Origin: Halorubrum sp. CSM-61 | GTDB taxonomy: Archaea > Halobacteriota > Halobacteria > Halobacteriales > Haloferacaceae | Assembly (NCBI RefSeq): GCF_003781945.1 | Contig: NZ_RJJW01000006.1 | Coordinates: 186,001 to 250,000, forward strand | Length of the DNA: 64,000 nt | Direction of reading: 5' to 3' | In this document: one piece after another, positions 37,727 through 62,756 of the stretch | Layout of the letters: each line of letters opens with the position of its first letter | Numbering within the stretch: position 1 is the stretch's first letter | Translations under genes and position numbers: made by a program | Notes under the pieces: model-generated | Databases searched by the model: none | The model's input: only the letters and a program-made list of their open reading frames with translations | What the model was told of the DNA's origin: nothing

Positions 37727-39298
37727 ATGAAAGACACCGAAAAATACCTCATCCACGCCACCATCGCGGCCGACGGCGTCGTCGAGCGGAGCGACGTCGT
37801 CGGCGCGGTGTTCGGCCAGACGGAGGGGCTCCTCGGCGACGAGCTGGACCTGCGGGACCTCCAGGAGTCCTCGCGGGTCGGGCGGATCGACGTCGCCGTC
37901 GAGTCCGAGAACGGCCAGTCGTTCGGCGAGGTCACGGTCGCGTCGAGCCTCGACAAGGTCGAGACCGCGATCCTCGCCGCCGCGCTGGAGACGATCGACC
38001 GCATCGGCCCCTGCCACGCCTCGGTGGAGGTGACGAGCATCGAGGACGTGCGAGCGGCGAAGCGCCGCGAGGTCGTCGAGCGCGCCAAGGAACTCGTCGC
38101 CGGCGGCTTCGAGGAGACGAGCCTCAGGAGCGACGACATCCTCGAAGAGGTCCGCGAGGCCGCCCGCGTCGAGGGGATCGTCGACTACGAGGGGCTCCCC
38201 GCCGGCCCCCGCGTCGGCGACTCCGACGCCGTCATCGTCGTCGAGGGGCGCGCGGACGTGCTGACGCTGCTGGAGTGTGGAATTAAGAACGCGGTCGCCG
38301 TCGAGGGGACGAACGTCCCCGACGCGGTCGCCGACCTCACCGCCGACCGCACCGTCACGGCGTTTCTCGACGGCGACCGCGGCGGCGAGCTCATCCTGCG
38401 GGAGCTCGCGCAGGTGGGCGACGTGGACTACGTCGCGTTCGCGCCGCCCGGCGAGTCGGTCGAGGACCTCGACCGCAACGCCGTCTTCGAGGCGCTCCGC
38501 GGAAAGGTGCCGTACAGCAGCCTCGCCGACGAGCCGAACCTTCGGGAGGCGGCCGCGGACGACTCGAGGGACTCCCCCCTCGAAGGCGACGGCACCGACC
38601 TCCCGGGCGGGGCGTCCGGGTCCTCGGACGACGAGGGAGGCGAAAACGCGACCGCGAGCGAGGACGGCGGCGACGATCGCGACGCCGGTGTCGTCGCCGG
38701 CGGCGCTCGGGGCGCGGCGGGGGGCGGGCTCGTGGAGGCGGTCGAGGACGCGCCGGCGCCCGCGGCGATCGACGGGGAGGAGAACGAGACCGACGAGGGG
38801 CGCGAGGAGGACGGCGACGGCTCGGCCGGCGACGGTGAGACCGACGGCGAGACCGCCGAGGGCGACGACGCCGAATCCGGTCCCGACGACGCGGAGATCA
38901 CGGATACGGATCCCGACGACGAGGCGGTCACCGAGAGCGGAGCAGAGAGCACGGCGGAGGGCGGAGCGGACGACGACGCGCCCCTCGACGACGAGCCGCG
39001 GTCGATCGAGGAGCACGTGCAGGAGGTCGTCGACGCCGGCAGCGACCGCGCCCGGCTGCTCGGCGACGACCGCGGCGTCCTCGCGGAGGTCGACGCGGTC
39101 GACGCCTTCGACGCGGTCGAGACCGCCGAGACGGCCCCGCACACGGTCGTCGTCGACGGGCTGATCGACCAGCGCCTGCTCGACGTCGCCGCCCAACGCG
39201 GGGTCAGCGAGCTGCTCGGCCGCGAGGTCGGCGAGTTCGTGAAACGACCCGTGGGGACGCGGGTGCTCACGGTCGGCGACCTCCGCGCCGGGAGCTGA
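37727..39298 (+). CDS. dnaG: Archaeal DnaG primase-like protein
   Basis: 523 residues. A bacterial-type Toprim domain is flanked by archaeal extensions: MKDTEKYLIHATIAADGVVE at the N-terminus, then VIVVEGRADVLTLLECGIKNAVAVEG and VTAFLDGDRGGELILREL (Toprim acidic residues), PGESVEDL, and a C-terminal domain ending RVLTVGDLRAGS. A very acidic low-complexity linker (about residues 290-430) is larger than in most archaea, a haloarchaeal habit. In archaea DnaG is linked to the RNA exosome and may also act in DNA replication. Confidence 0.96.
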   Translation: MKDTEKYLIHATIAADGVVERSDVVGAVFGQTEGLLGDELDLRDLQESSRVGRIDVAVESENGQSFGEVTVASSLDKVETAILAAALETIDRIGPCHASVEVTSIEDVRAAKRREVVERAKELVAGGFEETSLRSDDILEEVREAARVEGIVDYEGLPAGPRVGDSDAVIVVEGRADVLTLLECGIKNAVAVEGTNVPDAVADLTADRTVTAFLDGDRGGELILRELAQVGDVDYVAFAPPGESVEDLDRNAVFEALRGKVPYSSLADEPNLREAAADDSRDSPLEGDGTDLPGGASGSSDDEGGENATASEDGGDDRDAGVVAGGARGAAGGGLVEAVEDAPAPAAIDGEENETDEGREEDGDGSAGDGETDGETAEGDDAESGPDDAEITDTDPDDEAVTESGAESTAEGGADDDAPLDDEPRSIEEHVQEVVDAGSDRARLLGDDRGVLAEVDAVDAFDAVETAETAPHTVVVDGLIDQRLLDVAAQRGVSELLGREVGEFVKRPVGTRVLTVGDLRAGS

Positions 39299-39434
39299 GG
39301 ACGGGCGCACGGCGTCTCGGGCGGGACGAACCATCAGTTCGGTGGACGCGAGTTCTTGAGCAATTACGGGAGTACGTCTCGCACGTTTCTGGAGTGGCTG
39401 TTTATAAGTGATCGAGTGGTGTCGCTGTCGGCTG

Positions 39435-39441
39435 TTTATAA
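39435..39441 (+). promoter_or_regulatory. TATA-like box before element copy A
   Basis: tttataa, 22 bases before the first conserved base of the structured element (39457). A second tttataa lies at about 39400-39406 in a near-repeat (ggctgtttataagt), and a third at 39724-39730 after the element. Confidence 0.5.
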
Positions 39442-39456
39442 GTCGTCGACGGCGCT

Positions 39457-39716
39457 GCGGTGAACACTTCCAAAGCCCCAGCCGCTGCGGGCGCCGCACG
39501 CTCGCTGCGCGCCTCACTCGGTCGCTGCCGCTCCCTCGTTGCGGTGCTTACATCGCCTGCGGCGCCCGCAGCGGCTGCCCCTTTGAATCCCACCCGACCG
39601 CTCAGCACCGCAGCCTCACGCCTCCCCAGCCTCGTCGCTGGCGGCGATAGCCGCCAGCGACTCCCTCGCGCGTGCTCCTCGCGGCCTGTCGGCCGCTCGG
39701 AGGCACGCGCCACCGC
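39457..39716 (+). repeat. Structured dispersed element, copy A
   Basis: 260 bp. Ends pair gcggtg with caccgc. Conserved blocks shared with copy B include tgaacac..ccaaagccccagcc near the left, gctgcccctttga.tcccacc in the middle, cagcctcacgcctccccag, then the right hairpin and aggcacgcgccaccgc. Stem 1: 39480-39498 with 39558-39576 (19 bp, perfect). Stem 2: tcgctggcggc/gccgccagcga around gata, near 39636-39661. Stem 3: gcggcc (39681-39686) with ggccgc (39691-39696), loop tgtc. It lies between convergent genes dnaG and the prepilin peptidase gene, so it interrupts no reading frame. It may be a structured RNA or a mobile repeat. Confidence 0.72.
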
Positions 39717-39880
39717 GTTGTTCTTTATAAGCAATCGTCGCTGTCGCTCGTAGCTCGTTTAAATACTGTTTCGCCGCCACCGATCTGCAATACTCACTCC
39801 CGTAATCGCTCGCTGCTGTGTCCGTACCGATCGGAACCGAACCGGCGCGTGTTGCTCGCGGCGAGGTTCTCCAAAGTCGC

Positions 39881-40879
39881 TTATACCAACCCGATCGCGC
39901 CGAGCGCCGCGAACAGCGCGTCCCCGTACGTCAGTGAGACGATCAGCCCGACCGCCATCGGAACGACGAACGGCATCCCCGGCGACACCAGCACGCGGTC
40001 CTTTCGGGCGACGACCGCCAGCCCGCCCCGGAGCGTCTCGGCGTCGGTGCCGTACGCGCCGTGGTCGATCTCGTCGAGGAAGCGCTCGGCGGCCCACGGG
40101 TCGGCGGGGCTGCCGGCGCCGTCGGCGTCTCCCTCGCCATCGGCTCCCGTCGCGACCCCTCCGTCCGTCCGCGGTCCGACGTGCGTCCCGCCGTCGGTCG
40201 GGTCGTGCGTCTCGCCGACGCTGGCGGGGTCGCGGAGGCGGTCGGCGTCCGCGCGCAGGTCCGCGAGCGGCAGCCCGCGCCAGCGCAGGTACATCCGGAG
40301 CGCGTCCAGATCGAGGCCGTTCCGGGTCGTCCCCGCGTCGTTCTCGAACAGGCGTCCGTGGCGGTCCGGCAGCGAGTCGGTCGCCACCGGCCGCGCGAGG
40401 AACATCGTCGCCGAGCGCTCCCCGCGGAGGAGGTTGATCCCGGCGAGACCGACCGGGTACGCGAGCGCGAGCAGGACCGTGTTCGTGAGCACCGTCAGCG
40501 AGAACACGCCGATCTGGGTGTCGACGAGCGGGAGTTTCGCTCCGGCGACGGCGTACTCCGGGAACGTCGGAAAGAGGACCGCGATCGCGATCAGCGCCTT
40601 CGCGTCGGCCCCGCCGAACGCGCCGAGGTACCAGAACGCGTAGCCCAGCGGGGCGACGAACAGCAGACTGATCGCGGCCTGAACGAGGAACAGCCGTCCC
40701 TCGAACCCCGCGAGGGGCCAGAGGCGGGCGGTCTCCCAGACCAACAGCAGCGCGCCGAACGCGTACAGCGGCGGCCACAGCCGGTTCGGGAGGCGTCGGG
40801 TCCGAACGTCCCGCAGGGCCGCCCACGCGAACACGGGGACGACGAACAGGCGGAGGGCGTCCGGCAGCGTCGCGAACAT
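39881..40879 (-). CDS. Prepilin peptidase (A24 family)
   Basis: 332 residues from ATG 40879. Membrane aspartyl peptidase cleaving pilin and archaellin signal peptides: the first Asp lies in AALRDVRTRRLPNRLWP and the second in GAFGGADAKALIAIA (GxGD-like GGAD). About seven hydrophobic segments, with a long acidic cytoplasmic loop (about residues 190-285) typical of haloarchaea. It could process the pilin-like protein at 6531 among others. Confidence 0.9.
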   Translation of the reverse strand: MFATLPDALRLFVVPVFAWAALRDVRTRRLPNRLWPPLYAFGALLLVWETARLWPLAGFEGRLFLVQAAISLLFVAPLGYAFWYLGAFGGADAKALIAIAVLFPTFPEYAVAGAKLPLVDTQIGVFSLTVLTNTVLLALAYPVGLAGINLLRGERSATMFLARPVATDSLPDRHGRLFENDAGTTRNGLDLDALRMYLRWRGLPLADLRADADRLRDPASVGETHDPTDGGTHVGPRTDGGVATGADGEGDADGAGSPADPWAAERFLDEIDHGAYGTDAETLRGGLAVVARKDRVLVSPGMPFVVPMAVGLIVSLTYGDALFAALGAIGLV

Positions 40880-41026
40880 GTCACCACGGGCGGCGCGGGC
40901 GTAATTAGGCGTTCGGGTTCGCGTATCGCGATCGATAGCGCGGCGGCGGTCGCGGGCGGTGAGAAGAGGAAAGAAGGGAGAGGCGAACCGCCGGCGCTTT
41001 GTGGGACCACTACCGACCGGCGACCG

Positions 41027-41548
41027 ATGCGACGCCGCGTCGGAACCAGTCTGTACGCCGGGCTCCTCTTCACCGTCCTCGGCGCGATCGCGTGGGGGAC
41101 CGGCCAGCCGTTCGTCTTCCCGAGCCTCGGGCCGTCGGCGTTCCTGATCGCGTTCGACCGGCGGAGCGAGCGCGAGCGGGCCGTTCGGGTCGTCGGAAGC
41201 CACCTCATCGGCGGCGTCGCCGGGCTGGCGGCGTGGTCGCTGATCGCGGCCGGCGCCAGCCTCACCGCGACCCCGCCCGCGTTCTCGCCCGAGGGATTCC
41301 GGCTCGCGGCGAGCGCGACGGTCTCCCTCGTGGCGACGAGCTGGGCGATGATCGCGACCGACGCGGTCCACGCGCCCGCCTGCGCGACGACGCTCATCGT
41401 CTCGCTCGGGCTCCTCTCGACCCCGCCGGAGGTGGCGATCATCGTCGCGAGCGTGACCGTGCTCGTGGGGTTCCACGCGGGCGTGATTCTGGTCTTCAAG
41501 CGGATCGTCGGCGACGCGCACCCGCTCTACCGGGCCGAGGATCGCTGA
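41027..41548 (+). CDS. HPP-family membrane protein
   Basis: 173 residues, four or five membrane helices. Contains GQPFVFPSLGPSAFLIAF and DAVHAPACATTLIVSLGLLS, the HPP-family signature, given in pieces VFPSLGPSAFL and HAPACATTLIVSLG. HPP proteins are thought to be membrane channels or transporters (nitrite in plants). No partner or substrate is indicated. Divergent from the prepilin peptidase gene, 147 bp. Confidence 0.88.
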   Translation: MRRRVGTSLYAGLLFTVLGAIAWGTGQPFVFPSLGPSAFLIAFDRRSERERAVRVVGSHLIGGVAGLAAWSLIAAGASLTATPPAFSPEGFRLAASATVSLVATSWAMIATDAVHAPACATTLIVSLGLLSTPPEVAIIVASVTVLVGFHAGVILVFKRIVGDAHPLYRAEDR

Positions 41549-59115: not shown

Positions 59116-59463
59116 ATGGAACACGTTCCGTTCGACGACGCGGAGACCTACGAGCCGGAAGACGGATGGGGACGCGCCGCGCTGGCGGGCAGCGACCGGT
59201 TCTCCTTCGAGTGGTTCGAGAAGCCGTCGGGCCACTCCTCGCCGATGCACGACCACGAGAACGAGCAGGTCTGCGTCTGCCTGGAGGGCGAGCTCGTCGT
59301 CCACACCGAGGACGACACCGCCGTGTTAGCGGAGTACGACTCGGTCCACCTCGACGCGTGGGAGTCGCACCGGGTCGAGAACCGGACCGACGAGCGCGCG
59401 GTCGGCCTCGACGTGTTCGCGCCGGGCCGCGGCTTCGACTTCTGGACCGACCGGGAGGAGTGA
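59116..59463 (+). CDS. Cupin-domain protein
   Basis: 115 residues. Cupin motif 1 is SPMHDHENEQVCVCLEGEL (two His, Glu) and motif 2 is HLDAWESHRVENRTDE. Such single-cupin proteins bind a metal and are isomerases, dioxygenases or sensors. The stop overlaps the next start by one base (TGATG), so it is coupled to the FAH-family gene. Confidence 0.88.
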   Translation: MEHVPFDDAETYEPEDGWGRAALAGSDRFSFEWFEKPSGHSSPMHDHENEQVCVCLEGELVVHTEDDTAVLAEYDSVHLDAWESHRVENRTDERAVGLDVFAPGRGFDFWTDREE

Positions 59464-60344
59464 TGGCGGGGGACACCCCACAGGCGGGAGACACGGGGGG
59501 GATCCGACTCGCCCGGACCGTCGAGGGCCGGCCTCTGCTCGGCGACGAGGACGGGTTCGTCCCGCTCGCGTCGGCCGGGATCGACGGGGTCGACGACGCG
59601 CTCGACGCCGCGGTCGGCGAGGTCGACGGCGACGCCTCCGGGAGGCCGGCGCTCCCGTCGCTCGACGACCTCCCCGCCTCGCGGACGCCGGCGGAGGGCC
59701 TCTCGTTCGGCGTCCCGTTCGACCCCGGGAAGCTCTGGGGGATCGGGCTCAACTACGCCGACCACGCCGAGGACCTCGACGCGGTCCGGCCCGCGGAGCC
59801 CGCGAGCTTCATGCAGCCGGCGACGGCGCTGACCGCGCCCGGCGGGCCGATCCGGCTGCCGCCGACCGAGGAGGCGTCTCGGGTCACGGCGGAGGCGGAG
59901 CTGGGCCTCGTGATCGGTCGGACCTGCAAGGATATCGGCGAGGGCGAGTTCGGCGACGTCGTCGCCGGTGTCGTCCCCGTCATCGATGTGACCGCCGAGG
60001 ACGTGCTCCAGCGCAACCCGCGCTTTCTCACCCGCGCGAAGAGCTACGACACGTTCCTCGTCGTCGGCCCGTGGGTGTCTGCCCCGGTCAGCGTCGACCG
60101 GCTCGCGGGGACGACCGTCCGGACCGTGATCAACGGCGAGACGGTCGCGGAGAACACCGTGGACCGGATGCTGTTCCCGCCCGAGGAGCTCGTGAGCGTC
60201 CACTCGCGCGTGATGACGCTGGAGCGCGGGGACCTGATCTCGACGGGGACGCCCGGCGCGGGCGTGATCGAGGCCGGCGACACGGTCCGCGCGGAGGTCG
60301 ACGGCGTGGGGGTGCTGGAGGCGGACGTGATCGGGAGTGAGTGA
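59463..60344 (+). CDS. Fumarylacetoacetate hydrolase family protein
   Basis: 293 residues from ATG 59463. KLWGIGLNYADHAEDLD, AEAELGLVIGRTCKDI (two metal Glu), FDVTAEDVLQRNPRFL-like segment IDVTAEDVLQRNPRFL, RMLFPPEELVSVHSRVMTLERGDLISTGTPGAGVIEAGD in pieces (SVHSRVMTLERGDLIST, GTPGAGVIEAGD). This FAH/HpaG fold hydrolyses or decarboxylates 2-oxo acids in aromatic or sugar-acid breakdown, fitting the cupin/AEC/SDR neighbours. Confidence 0.93.
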   Translation: MAGDTPQAGDTGGIRLARTVEGRPLLGDEDGFVPLASAGIDGVDDALDAAVGEVDGDASGRPALPSLDDLPASRTPAEGLSFGVPFDPGKLWGIGLNYADHAEDLDAVRPAEPASFMQPATALTAPGGPIRLPPTEEASRVTAEAELGLVIGRTCKDIGEGEFGDVVAGVVPVIDVTAEDVLQRNPRFLTRAKSYDTFLVVGPWVSAPVSVDRLAGTTVRTVINGETVAENTVDRMLFPPEELVSVHSRVMTLERGDLISTGTPGAGVIEAGDTVRAEVDGVGVLEADVIGSE

Positions 60345-60615: not shown

Positions 60616-60622
60616 CTTATAA
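60616..60622 (+). promoter_or_regulatory. TATA-like box before element copy B
   Basis: cttataa, 25 bases before the first conserved base of the element (60641), the spacing of a haloarchaeal TATA to its start site. Another tttataa follows the element at 60924-60930. Read on the minus strand, the same box could be the promoter of the 60552 gene. Confidence 0.5.
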
Positions 60623-60640
60623 CTCGTTGCTGACGGCTCG

Positions 60641-60916
60641 GCGGTGAACACCGCCAAAGCCCCAGCCACGCTCGGCTCCCACAGCTCGCTGCGCTCCTCA
60701 GTCGCTCGTTTCACTCGCTCCCTGCGGTGCTTGCGTCGCTGGGGTTCGCCGAGCGCGGCTGCCCCTTTGAGTCCCACCCCGCACCGCAACTGCAGCCTCA
60801 CGCCTCCCCAGCCTCGCGGCTCGCTCGGGGCTCCCTTCGGTCGCCCACGTCGCTCACCGCGTCCCTCGCGCGCGCTCCTCGTGGCCTATCGGCCACTCGG
60901 AGGCACGCGCCACCGC
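60641..60916 (+). repeat. Structured dispersed element, copy B
   Basis: 276 bp, same orientation as copy A. Ends pair gcggtg with caccgc. Stem 1: agccacgctcggc (60664-60676) with gccgagcgcggct (60748-60760), 12 of 13 pairs. The sequence of this stem differs from copy A yet pairing is kept. Stem 3: gtggcc (60881-60886) with ggccac (60891-60896), loop tatc, again with compensated changes. The middle hairpin is less regular than in A. Lies between arcS and the small zinc-ribbon gene, both minus strand. Apparent ORFs across the element differ in frame between copies and are probably not coding. Confidence 0.72.
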
Positions 60917-60953
60917 AGTTCTGTTTATAAGTAGTGCTTCGACGTTCCCGTCC

Positions 60954-62756
60954 CTACTTCTCGTCGACGTGCCGGACCTCGCTGGCGACGCCGCGCGTCG
61001 AGTCGACCATCTCCGGACCGGACATCTCGGCGCGGCCGACCGCGAACGCCTTCGGCCCCTCGATGACGATCTCGTCGCCGACGCGGATATCGTCGTCCGC
61101 GTCGACGACGCCGGGCGCGAGAACCGAGCCGTGGGGAACGAACCGGTCGATCTCGACTCGCTTCGCGGGGGCGTCGCTCTCGACCCAGCGGCGCGCGCCG
61201 GCGAGGGTGAAAGAGAGGGTGCCGTACTGCGGCACCATCGTCGCGAGCTGTTCGCCCGGCTCGCCCTCGCGGCCGGCGTCGGGGTCCTCGCCCCACACCT
61301 GCAGTTTGGGGTACCGACCCGTGGTGCGGATGTCGGCCTCGCCCGGCCCGCCGAACAGGTCGTCGCCGGCGCCGTCGCCGAGCAGGTAGTCGGCGAGCGC
61401 CCGGACCGTGTTGTGCTCGCGCTCCCGCTTGCTGTAGGCCGGTTCGCCCTGTAAGGCGGCGTTCAGCTCCCCGAGCGACTCGTCGCTCGTGGGGTGACCG
61501 ACGCAGGTGTACTCGAAGGGGACGTCGATCGCGGGGTCGCGCTCGACGCGCTCGCAGATCTCGCGGTAGCCGTGGTCGGGGACGTGCGCGACGACGCGGG
61601 AGTAGTCGTTCCGCTCCAGATATCGGCGGAGCACCTCGGCGACGAACCCGGTCTCGTCCTCGCTCCAGTCGCCGGTGACGACCGCGTCGTAGTGCTGTGC
61701 GGGGTAGGTCGTCTCCAGCTCCTGGGGGACCACGCCGATCGGCGAGGTCATCGAAACGGTGTGGCCGCGCCACTGGATCGCGTCGTGGAACTGCCGGTGG
61801 CTCTGGGAGTCGCTGTACGGCTTGGTCGCCGAGCAGGGCACCAACACGAGCGGCTGGTCGGCAAAGCGGTTCCGGTACCGGCTCGTCACGCGGTCGGCGA
61901 ACCGCCGGATCTCGACGCGGTCGAGCGTCTCCGCGGTCGCCGCGGTCACCTCGGCGTCGCGCATGAGGGGGGTCCGTTCCTCTACGTACCCCCACTGGTC
62001 GTCGAACTCGCGGAACGCCGCCGTGAGCCACTGCTCGTGGCGGGTCTGGCCCTCGATGTAGTCGCGCAGGCGACCCGCCCGAACCCGCTCGCGGACGCGG
62101 CGGAGCTCGGCGCGGAGGGCGTTGACGTTGTGCTCGGCGCAGTCCGCGCGCGTGAACTCCTCGCGGGGGCCCGCACAGGCCGGACAGGCGCACGGGAGCT
62201 CGTCGAGGTCCTCAAGGAAGTGCTCGGCGTCGGCGGTGAGATACATCCCCTGGGTCCCCTTCGTCCGCGCGAGCGTCGCGTCCACGAGGTCGACGCCGGC
62301 GTACGCGAGCAGCGCGACGTTCCGGGGCGTGGCGACGCCCGACAGCGTGAGGGCGGTGTCGGCCGGGAGGGCCGCTTTCGCCGCCACGACCGCGTCGCGG
62401 AACGCCTCGCCGTGGCCGACGAACCCGGAGGCGTCGGCGAGGACGTACGCGTCCGCGCCCACGTCGTGCGCGCTCTCGCTGTCGACGACCGCGGCGGAGG
62501 GGTAGTCGACGTCGGGGTGATCGACCGCGAACGACTCGCGGACCTCCTCGCGGGTGCCCGCGGGGAACGCGCGGTGCGGCAGGACGGTGAGCGAGGCCTC
62601 GTCGCCGTCGGGAACCTCTCGGTCGCCGGCCCAGAGGCTGCCGGCGTCCTCGAGGAAGGGGTCCGCGAGCGCCGGCGTCGTCACCGGGTCTGCGAGCCGG
62701 AGCTCGCCGAGCCGGGCCGCGCCGTCGCGCTCGTGGACCTCGAAGTACTCGGTCAT
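60954..62756 (-). CDS. arcS: Archaeosine synthase ArcS
   Basis: 600 residues. The N-terminal TGT-like half (ADASGFVGHGEAFRDAV, TLSGVATPRNVALLAYAGVDLVDATLARTKG read in parts), the ArcS-specific motif PCSATKPYSDSQSH about residues 320-335, and a C-terminal PUA domain (APGVVDADDDIRVGDEIVIEGPKAFAVG in parts). ArcS converts preQ0-tRNA to archaeosine at position 15. The specific PC...KPY...H motif distinguishes it from the tRNA-guanine transglycosylase itself. Confidence 0.94.
   Translation of the reverse strand: MTEYFEVHERDGAARLGELRLADPVTTPALADPFLEDAGSLWAGDREVPDGDEASLTVLPHRAFPAGTREEVRESFAVDHPDVDYPSAAVVDSESAHDVGADAYVLADASGFVGHGEAFRDAVVAAKAALPADTALTLSGVATPRNVALLAYAGVDLVDATLARTKGTQGMYLTADAEHFLEDLDELPCACPACAGPREEFTRADCAEHNVNALRAELRRVRERVRAGRLRDYIEGQTRHEQWLTAAFREFDDQWGYVEERTPLMRDAEVTAATAETLDRVEIRRFADRVTSRYRNRFADQPLVLVPCSATKPYSDSQSHRQFHDAIQWRGHTVSMTSPIGVVPQELETTYPAQHYDAVVTGDWSEDETGFVAEVLRRYLERNDYSRVVAHVPDHGYREICERVERDPAIDVPFEYTCVGHPTSDESLGELNAALQGEPAYSKREREHNTVRALADYLLGDGAGDDLFGGPGEADIRTTGRYPKLQVWGEDPDAGREGEPGEQLATMVPQYGTLSFTLAGARRWVESDAPAKRVEIDRFVPHGSVLAPGVVDADDDIRVGDEIVIEGPKAFAVGRAEMSGPEMVDSTRGVASEVRHVDEK

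Follow-up and report, generated by a model that had tools for sequence, protein, structure and literature searches.

A dispersed family of hairpin-bearing, non-coding mobile repeats in Halorubrum and other haloarchaea

The DNA analysed here (hereinafter referred to as the window) is a stretch of 64,000 nucleotides from Halorubrum sp. CSM-61 containing two similar elements, copy A (39457-39716) and copy B (60641-60916), and it raises the question of whether these are copies of a structured RNA or of a mobile repeat. An initial annotation made from the sequence alone had named both as candidates, and both halves of that proposal were backed, by strong covariation and by occupied and empty orthologous sites. 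The coordinates of the two copies and the blocks they share were as the annotation described. Its pairing of stem 1 was also reproduced, the one mismatch among the 13 pairs of copy B being A.C when read on the plus strand and a G.U wobble when read on the minus, and the double change from C-G to T-A in stem 3 was real. Neither copy interrupts a gene, as had been claimed: copy A lies between convergent genes at 37727-39298 (+) and 39881-41521 (-), and copy B between 59166-60344 (+) and 60954-62756 (-).

Both copies are members of a dispersed, non-coding repeat family in this Halorubrum-type genome. The element had correctly been called dispersed, but it is far from being limited to two copies: a covariance model of the P3-P2 core (R1), built on 56 sequences, gave at least 150 matches in the genome. 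The true copy number is probably above 150, since the weakest of the 150 matches listed still had an E-value of 1.3e-6. With at least 150 copies, the family is one of the most frequent non-coding features that this genome has. The further copies kept the stems, which the annotation had proposed to check by such a search. A DNA search with copy A yielded 68 matches in the same genome, from which 40 candidates were scored, and all 22 genomes of the genus that were searched gave matches as well.

In a class-wide sample searched with R1, all Halorubrum genomes were matched, nearly all of them with at least 27 matches each; matches numbered 2-20 in each of nine genomes from the other genera within the family, and 1-2 in each of eight genomes from other families. 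An exact scan of named genomes for a 20-base motif was positive in many Halorubrum species and in Haloparvum, Halobellus, Halorussus, and Halosimplex, and the order of parts was broadly alike at the loci read in these four genera. A tandem array of similar units of about 57-60 bp adjoined the element in Halosimplex pelagicum (L198). No Rfam family scored above its gathering threshold, and a permissive search gave chance-level matches only. Nothing describing this family was found in the literature, a search that covered open-licence papers and is hence weak evidence of novelty. Carriage by viruses was rejected, as the exact 20-base motif was absent from viral contigs (a 14-base scan was too unspecific for use) and blastn gave no match in phages; plasmids contained six partial matches only.

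The basic unit is modular, spans about 260-300 bp, and contains three hairpins (P3, P2, and P1) on the minus strand (Table 1). Read on this strand, the parts follow in the order P3, the invariant GCGAGGGA, P2 (of any sequence), CGAGGCTGGGGAGGYGTGAGG, a linker, GGGACTCAAAGGGGCAG, the long P1, CTGGGGCTTTGGAGGTGTTCACCGC, and an AT box. The last part consists of tandem units of 51-69 bp in 1-5 copies; compared by description with a BOX-type middle module, this repeatable unit sits at one end of the element. For copy A, the mobile unit (39367-39802) extends beyond the edges given in the annotation.

Table 1. Positions of the parts of copies A and B in the window.
Feature	Position	Strand	Description
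Whole mobile unit, copy A	39367..39802	-	436 bp; inverted repeats CGGGAGTACGTCTCGCA ... TGCAATACTCACTCCCG at the termini, the same motifs that bound identical units with unrelated flanks
Left junction, copy A	39356..39366	.	TTGAGCAATTA; target consensus TGATCGATNG
Right junction, copy A	39803..39811	.	TAATCGCTC; consensus CNATCGATCA; target duplication not found
Left AT boxes, copy A	39401..39441	.	TTTATAA twice (39401-39407, 39435-39441), within a 34-bp repeat
Right AT boxes, copy A	39724..39764	.	TTTATAA (39724-39730) and TTTAAAT (39758-39764), 34 bp apart
GCGGTGAACACTTC block, copy A	39457..39470	-	Head of the unit motif; in tandem arrays of 51-69 bp in other copies
Stem P1, copy A	39471..39585	-	CAAAG and 20-bp helix; apex of two-pair steps between 2x2 loops
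Covariance-model core, copy A	39614..39716	-	P3, GCGAGGGA, P2, GAGGCTGGGGAGGCGTGAGG on minus; 113 bits, E 1.5e-21
Hairpin P2, copy A	39634..39661	-	
Unpaired GCGAGGGA (minus)	39662..39669	-	Invariant
Hairpin P3, copy A	39670..39709	-	Contains tandem G.A/A.G internal loop
Copy B with flanking AT boxes	60617..60930	-	Stand-alone form, without terminal inverted repeats
Covariance-model core, copy B	60796..60916	-	66.6 bits, E 7.2e-12

AT boxes flank most copies (left in 67 and right in 79 of 97, versus 13 and 0 of 97 in control windows further out). The TTTATAA boxes noted in the annotation are present, and their distance to the left block is mostly 27 or 30 nt, but being near-palindromic and found on both sides, they do not mark a start site or a direction. 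Changes in spacing within the 51-69 bp arrays (L001-L290, e.g., L072 and L047) were multiples of three in 60 of 63 unit-to-unit comparisons and in 100 of 119 unit-to-box comparisons. The idea suggested by this triplet-preserving spacing, that the unit is coding, was rejected, as substitutions had no codon-position bias and many units contained stops in every frame. The consensus of 39460-39470 and of the tandem units includes CACCTCC, the anti-Shine-Dalgarno core of 16S rRNA (GGAGGTG on the minus strand). A closing helix GCGGTG/CACCGC was discarded, the left side of this outermost block varying without matching changes on the right, and the mini-hairpin CGAGCGNNGCGAGCG was not enriched within the window.

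The hairpins covary strongly, far above both shuffled and slid controls. The fold of 281 nt around copy A had z-scores of -7.7 on the minus strand and -7.0 on the plus strand relative to dinucleotide shuffles. Across 56 distinct sequences, 91.4% of cells paired and double changes occurred in 17 of 26 pairs; double-changed cells numbered 181 versus 57 ± 5 in shuffles, a figure that is not a probability because the copies share descent and have probably exchanged sequence by gene conversion. The covariation score was 0.363 versus 0.131 ± 0.008 in the control, and slid structures collapsed. While the letters of the hairpins change freely, the unpaired motifs GCGAGGGA and CGAGGNTGGGGAGG are conserved across genera.

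Of the two strands, the minus strand is probably the structured one, whether as RNA or as single-stranded DNA, a view favoured by the retention of tandem GA/GA loops and by the excess of G.U over A.C on that strand. The tandem loop of P3 reads GA/GA on the minus strand in 86 of 94 copies, and among the 540 2x2 loops of the 171 units folded, 446 were GA/GA. Tandem G.A is a stable motif in both RNA and DNA; TC/TC is not known as one. In a plain MAFFT alignment, the inner and middle helices of P3 had 13 G.U (minus) versus 1 A.C; the model-fitted alignment stripped of its outer pairs gave 28 to 3, P1 gave 28 to 12, and strand-neutral scoring over the three stems gave 196 to 136. These and the loop counts come from related sequences and indicate a direction rather than serving as statistical tests. 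The lower half of P2 contained no G.U in 94 sequences. A plus-strand transcript, which the annotation had put forward as the functional product, was not upheld, since the conserved tandem G.A and the excess of G.U make sense on the minus strand. Folding energy was set aside as evidence on the strand: the minus strand folded better in 171 of 171 copies, yet the difference was almost as large in composition-shuffled controls (-22.7 versus -18.7 kcal/mol).

The family is mobile, as occupied and empty orthologous sites demonstrate. At the site of copy A, seven species, in each of which the junction was read, have the same convergent genes separated by a short, element-free gap; in G008, a 26-bp gap was located by coordinates only. 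The site was occupied in four genomes, with the core in one orientation in G000 and G003 and inverted in G012 and G005, and G007 carried a stand-alone unit. The site of copy B held a unit in G005, G019, G013, and G006; P1 was lost or replaced in G005 and G019, which speaks against the element being indispensable at this site. G017 had a different short sequence there, and G012, G008, and G004 had a longer coding-like insert instead of the element. This insert (L142-L144) measured about 900-1000 bp between the same flanking genes in the three species. Moreover, three pairs of units of 432-482 bp were 100% identical in unrelated flanks, which could be due to transposition or to full-length conversion between already occupied sites.

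The end motif CGGGAGTRNGTATNGCA occurred 69+68 times versus 3+7 for its reversed control. Two-ended units span 416-561 bp and have CGGGAGT...ACTCCCG terminal inverted repeats, with junctions of the form TGATCGATNG / CGGGAGT...ACTCCCG / CNATCGATCA; there are about 65 such copies, including copy A. Terminal inverted repeats around a unit too small to encode a transposase, as in MITEs, were confined to this copy-A subfamily and were missing from copy B. Target duplications, which the annotation had suggested checking, were not detected at the junctions by a register test of 75 copies, a test weakened by the near-palindromic target. The 18 regions inspected contained no longer element that shared these ends, as an autonomous partner would. 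At a greater distance, many flanks look like the two arms of an IS-like repeat ending in GGCTCTGTTGAAATCC, and L052 has one IS-like repeat without the core. Copy A sits within an older IS-derived repeat. The arms of the latter lie at 39310-39366 and 39803-39870, with similar arms at L052, L055, and L056, and L055 also has a transposase-like C-terminus or remnant beside the IS-like repeat.

None of 45 own copies tested was inside a called gene. Copies lay between convergent genes in 22 of 42 cases versus 7 of 30 intergenic gaps of the window, counts that are based on a simple home-made gene caller. Copies were found on all large contigs, and their spacing along the chromosome was not significantly regular (gap CV 0.87 versus 1.01 ± 0.09 simulated).

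Reverse transcriptase (PF00078) was detected in none of 23 Halorubrum genomes, with positive controls detected, which ruled out a SINE-like retroelement. The Y1 (RAYT/IS200) transposase (PF01797) was missing in 6 of the 23, and in two of these six (G015 and G018) all scored candidates matched the repeat model. The present genome has a single Y1 gene, which is not next to an element and is followed by a reading frame that we read as TnpB-like. A resident REP/RAYT system was rejected on these grounds.

We lean, with some reservation, towards a mobile, modular, non-coding haloarchaeal repeat family with BIME/BOX-like behaviour, the folds of which are kept through mobility. The folded minus strand, as RNA or as single-stranded DNA exposed in replication or transposition, would be recognised by a trans-acting protein during copying, and the hairpins would be kept mainly because only folding copies propagate. 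About 65 of the 150 or more copies, copy A among them, form a subfamily that may have become cargo of the 416-561 bp element with CGGGAGT inverted ends, which would then sit mid-way in the older IS-derived repeat, copy B representing the stand-alone form; gene conversion between copies may have produced mosaics. Against this explanation count the lack of reverse transcriptase in the genomes searched, the patchy Y1, the lack of a longer element with the same ends and of a target duplication in the regions and copies inspected, and a core common to several haloarchaeal genera, which is deeper than in many selfish repeats. A bolder version, which we advance only tentatively, would be an undescribed ancient mobile structured nucleic acid, i.e., a strand-specific, tandem-G.A-rich three-hairpin RNA or single-stranded DNA that spreads without reverse transcriptase or resident Y1 to at least 150 copies per genome.

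A functional haloarchaeal structured RNA family of about 250 nt on the minus strand, multiplied by a mobile carrier and having a host role such as protein binding or control of neighbouring transcripts, is considered less probable than this main explanation. The invariance of unpaired GCGAGGGA and CGAGGNTGGGGAGG across genera beside freely changing hairpins, the G.U excess on one strand (13 to 1, 28 to 3, and 196 to 136), and covariation beyond chance with collapse of slid controls, in which kinship of the copies is partly controlled, would all fit such an RNA, but its sites are dispensable, judging from the empty orthologous sites, modules have been lost in old copies, the box spacing suits a start on the plus strand better than one on the minus strand, and the lower half of P2 is devoid of G.U.

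We regard as improbable an ordinary MITE-like repeat whose hairpins are kept complementary by DNA-level template-switch (quasi-palindrome) correction, with no selection on folding. Such correction would account for stems that are almost purely Watson-Crick and for the 4 of 94 copies in which a perfect palindrome has replaced the tandem-GA loop, but it should erase these loops, which most copies keep (86 of 94), and the invariance of several unpaired motifs also speaks against it. Very unlikely, given the near-random spacing, is a role as DNA sites bound by proteins that organise the chromosome or act in transcription, with incidental hairpins. The AT boxes on either side, which in copy A lie 34 bp apart, and the spread across all large contigs might point to such sites, but they would leave the covariation unexplained.

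BIME/REP elements are numerous intergenic, mosaic, hairpin-bearing repeats with conserved stem imperfections and RAYT (Y1) transposases. The mobile family described here resembles them in all of these respects except the last, 6 of 23 repeat-bearing genomes being without Y1 transposase, and its three-hairpin unit is much larger. BOX elements of Streptococcus pneumoniae are intergenic, dispersed, and built of modules that form stable stem-loops; likened by description alone, the present family shares these traits and differs in being archaeal and in its tandem G.A signature. In behaviour, bacterial BIME/BOX elements and the small mobile repeats (SMRs) of Haloquadratum appear to be its closest counterparts. 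SMR-A and SMR-B of Haloquadratum walsbyi have neither a transposase nor a target duplication, and the inverted repeats at their termini are unrelated to those of known transposons; they insert preferentially into other mobile elements, and their mobilisation was considered enigmatic (PMC3119063). The present family behaves alike, as judged from that description, in its inverted repeats, the lack of target duplication and transposase, and its location inside other elements, whereas SMR-A is about 110 bp long and the units here span 416-561 bp with a structured, conserved cargo that is also found without inverted repeats (PMC3119063). PATEs, IS605-derived haloarchaeal repeats described as having near-terminal palindromes and no terminal inverted repeats, are likewise haloarchaeal, transposase-free, and palindromic, but the hairpins are internal here (PMC3119063).

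The family constitutes a natural experiment, in which one genome holds many variants of a single fold, orthologous sites are found both occupied and empty, and the strand bears a signature; an enzyme that moves the family, if found, could also explain the Haloquadratum SMRs. The left flank of site A was exchanged in G003 (L138 and L139), which points to an assembly break or to copies having recombined; recombination of this kind may rearrange haloarchaeal chromosomes.
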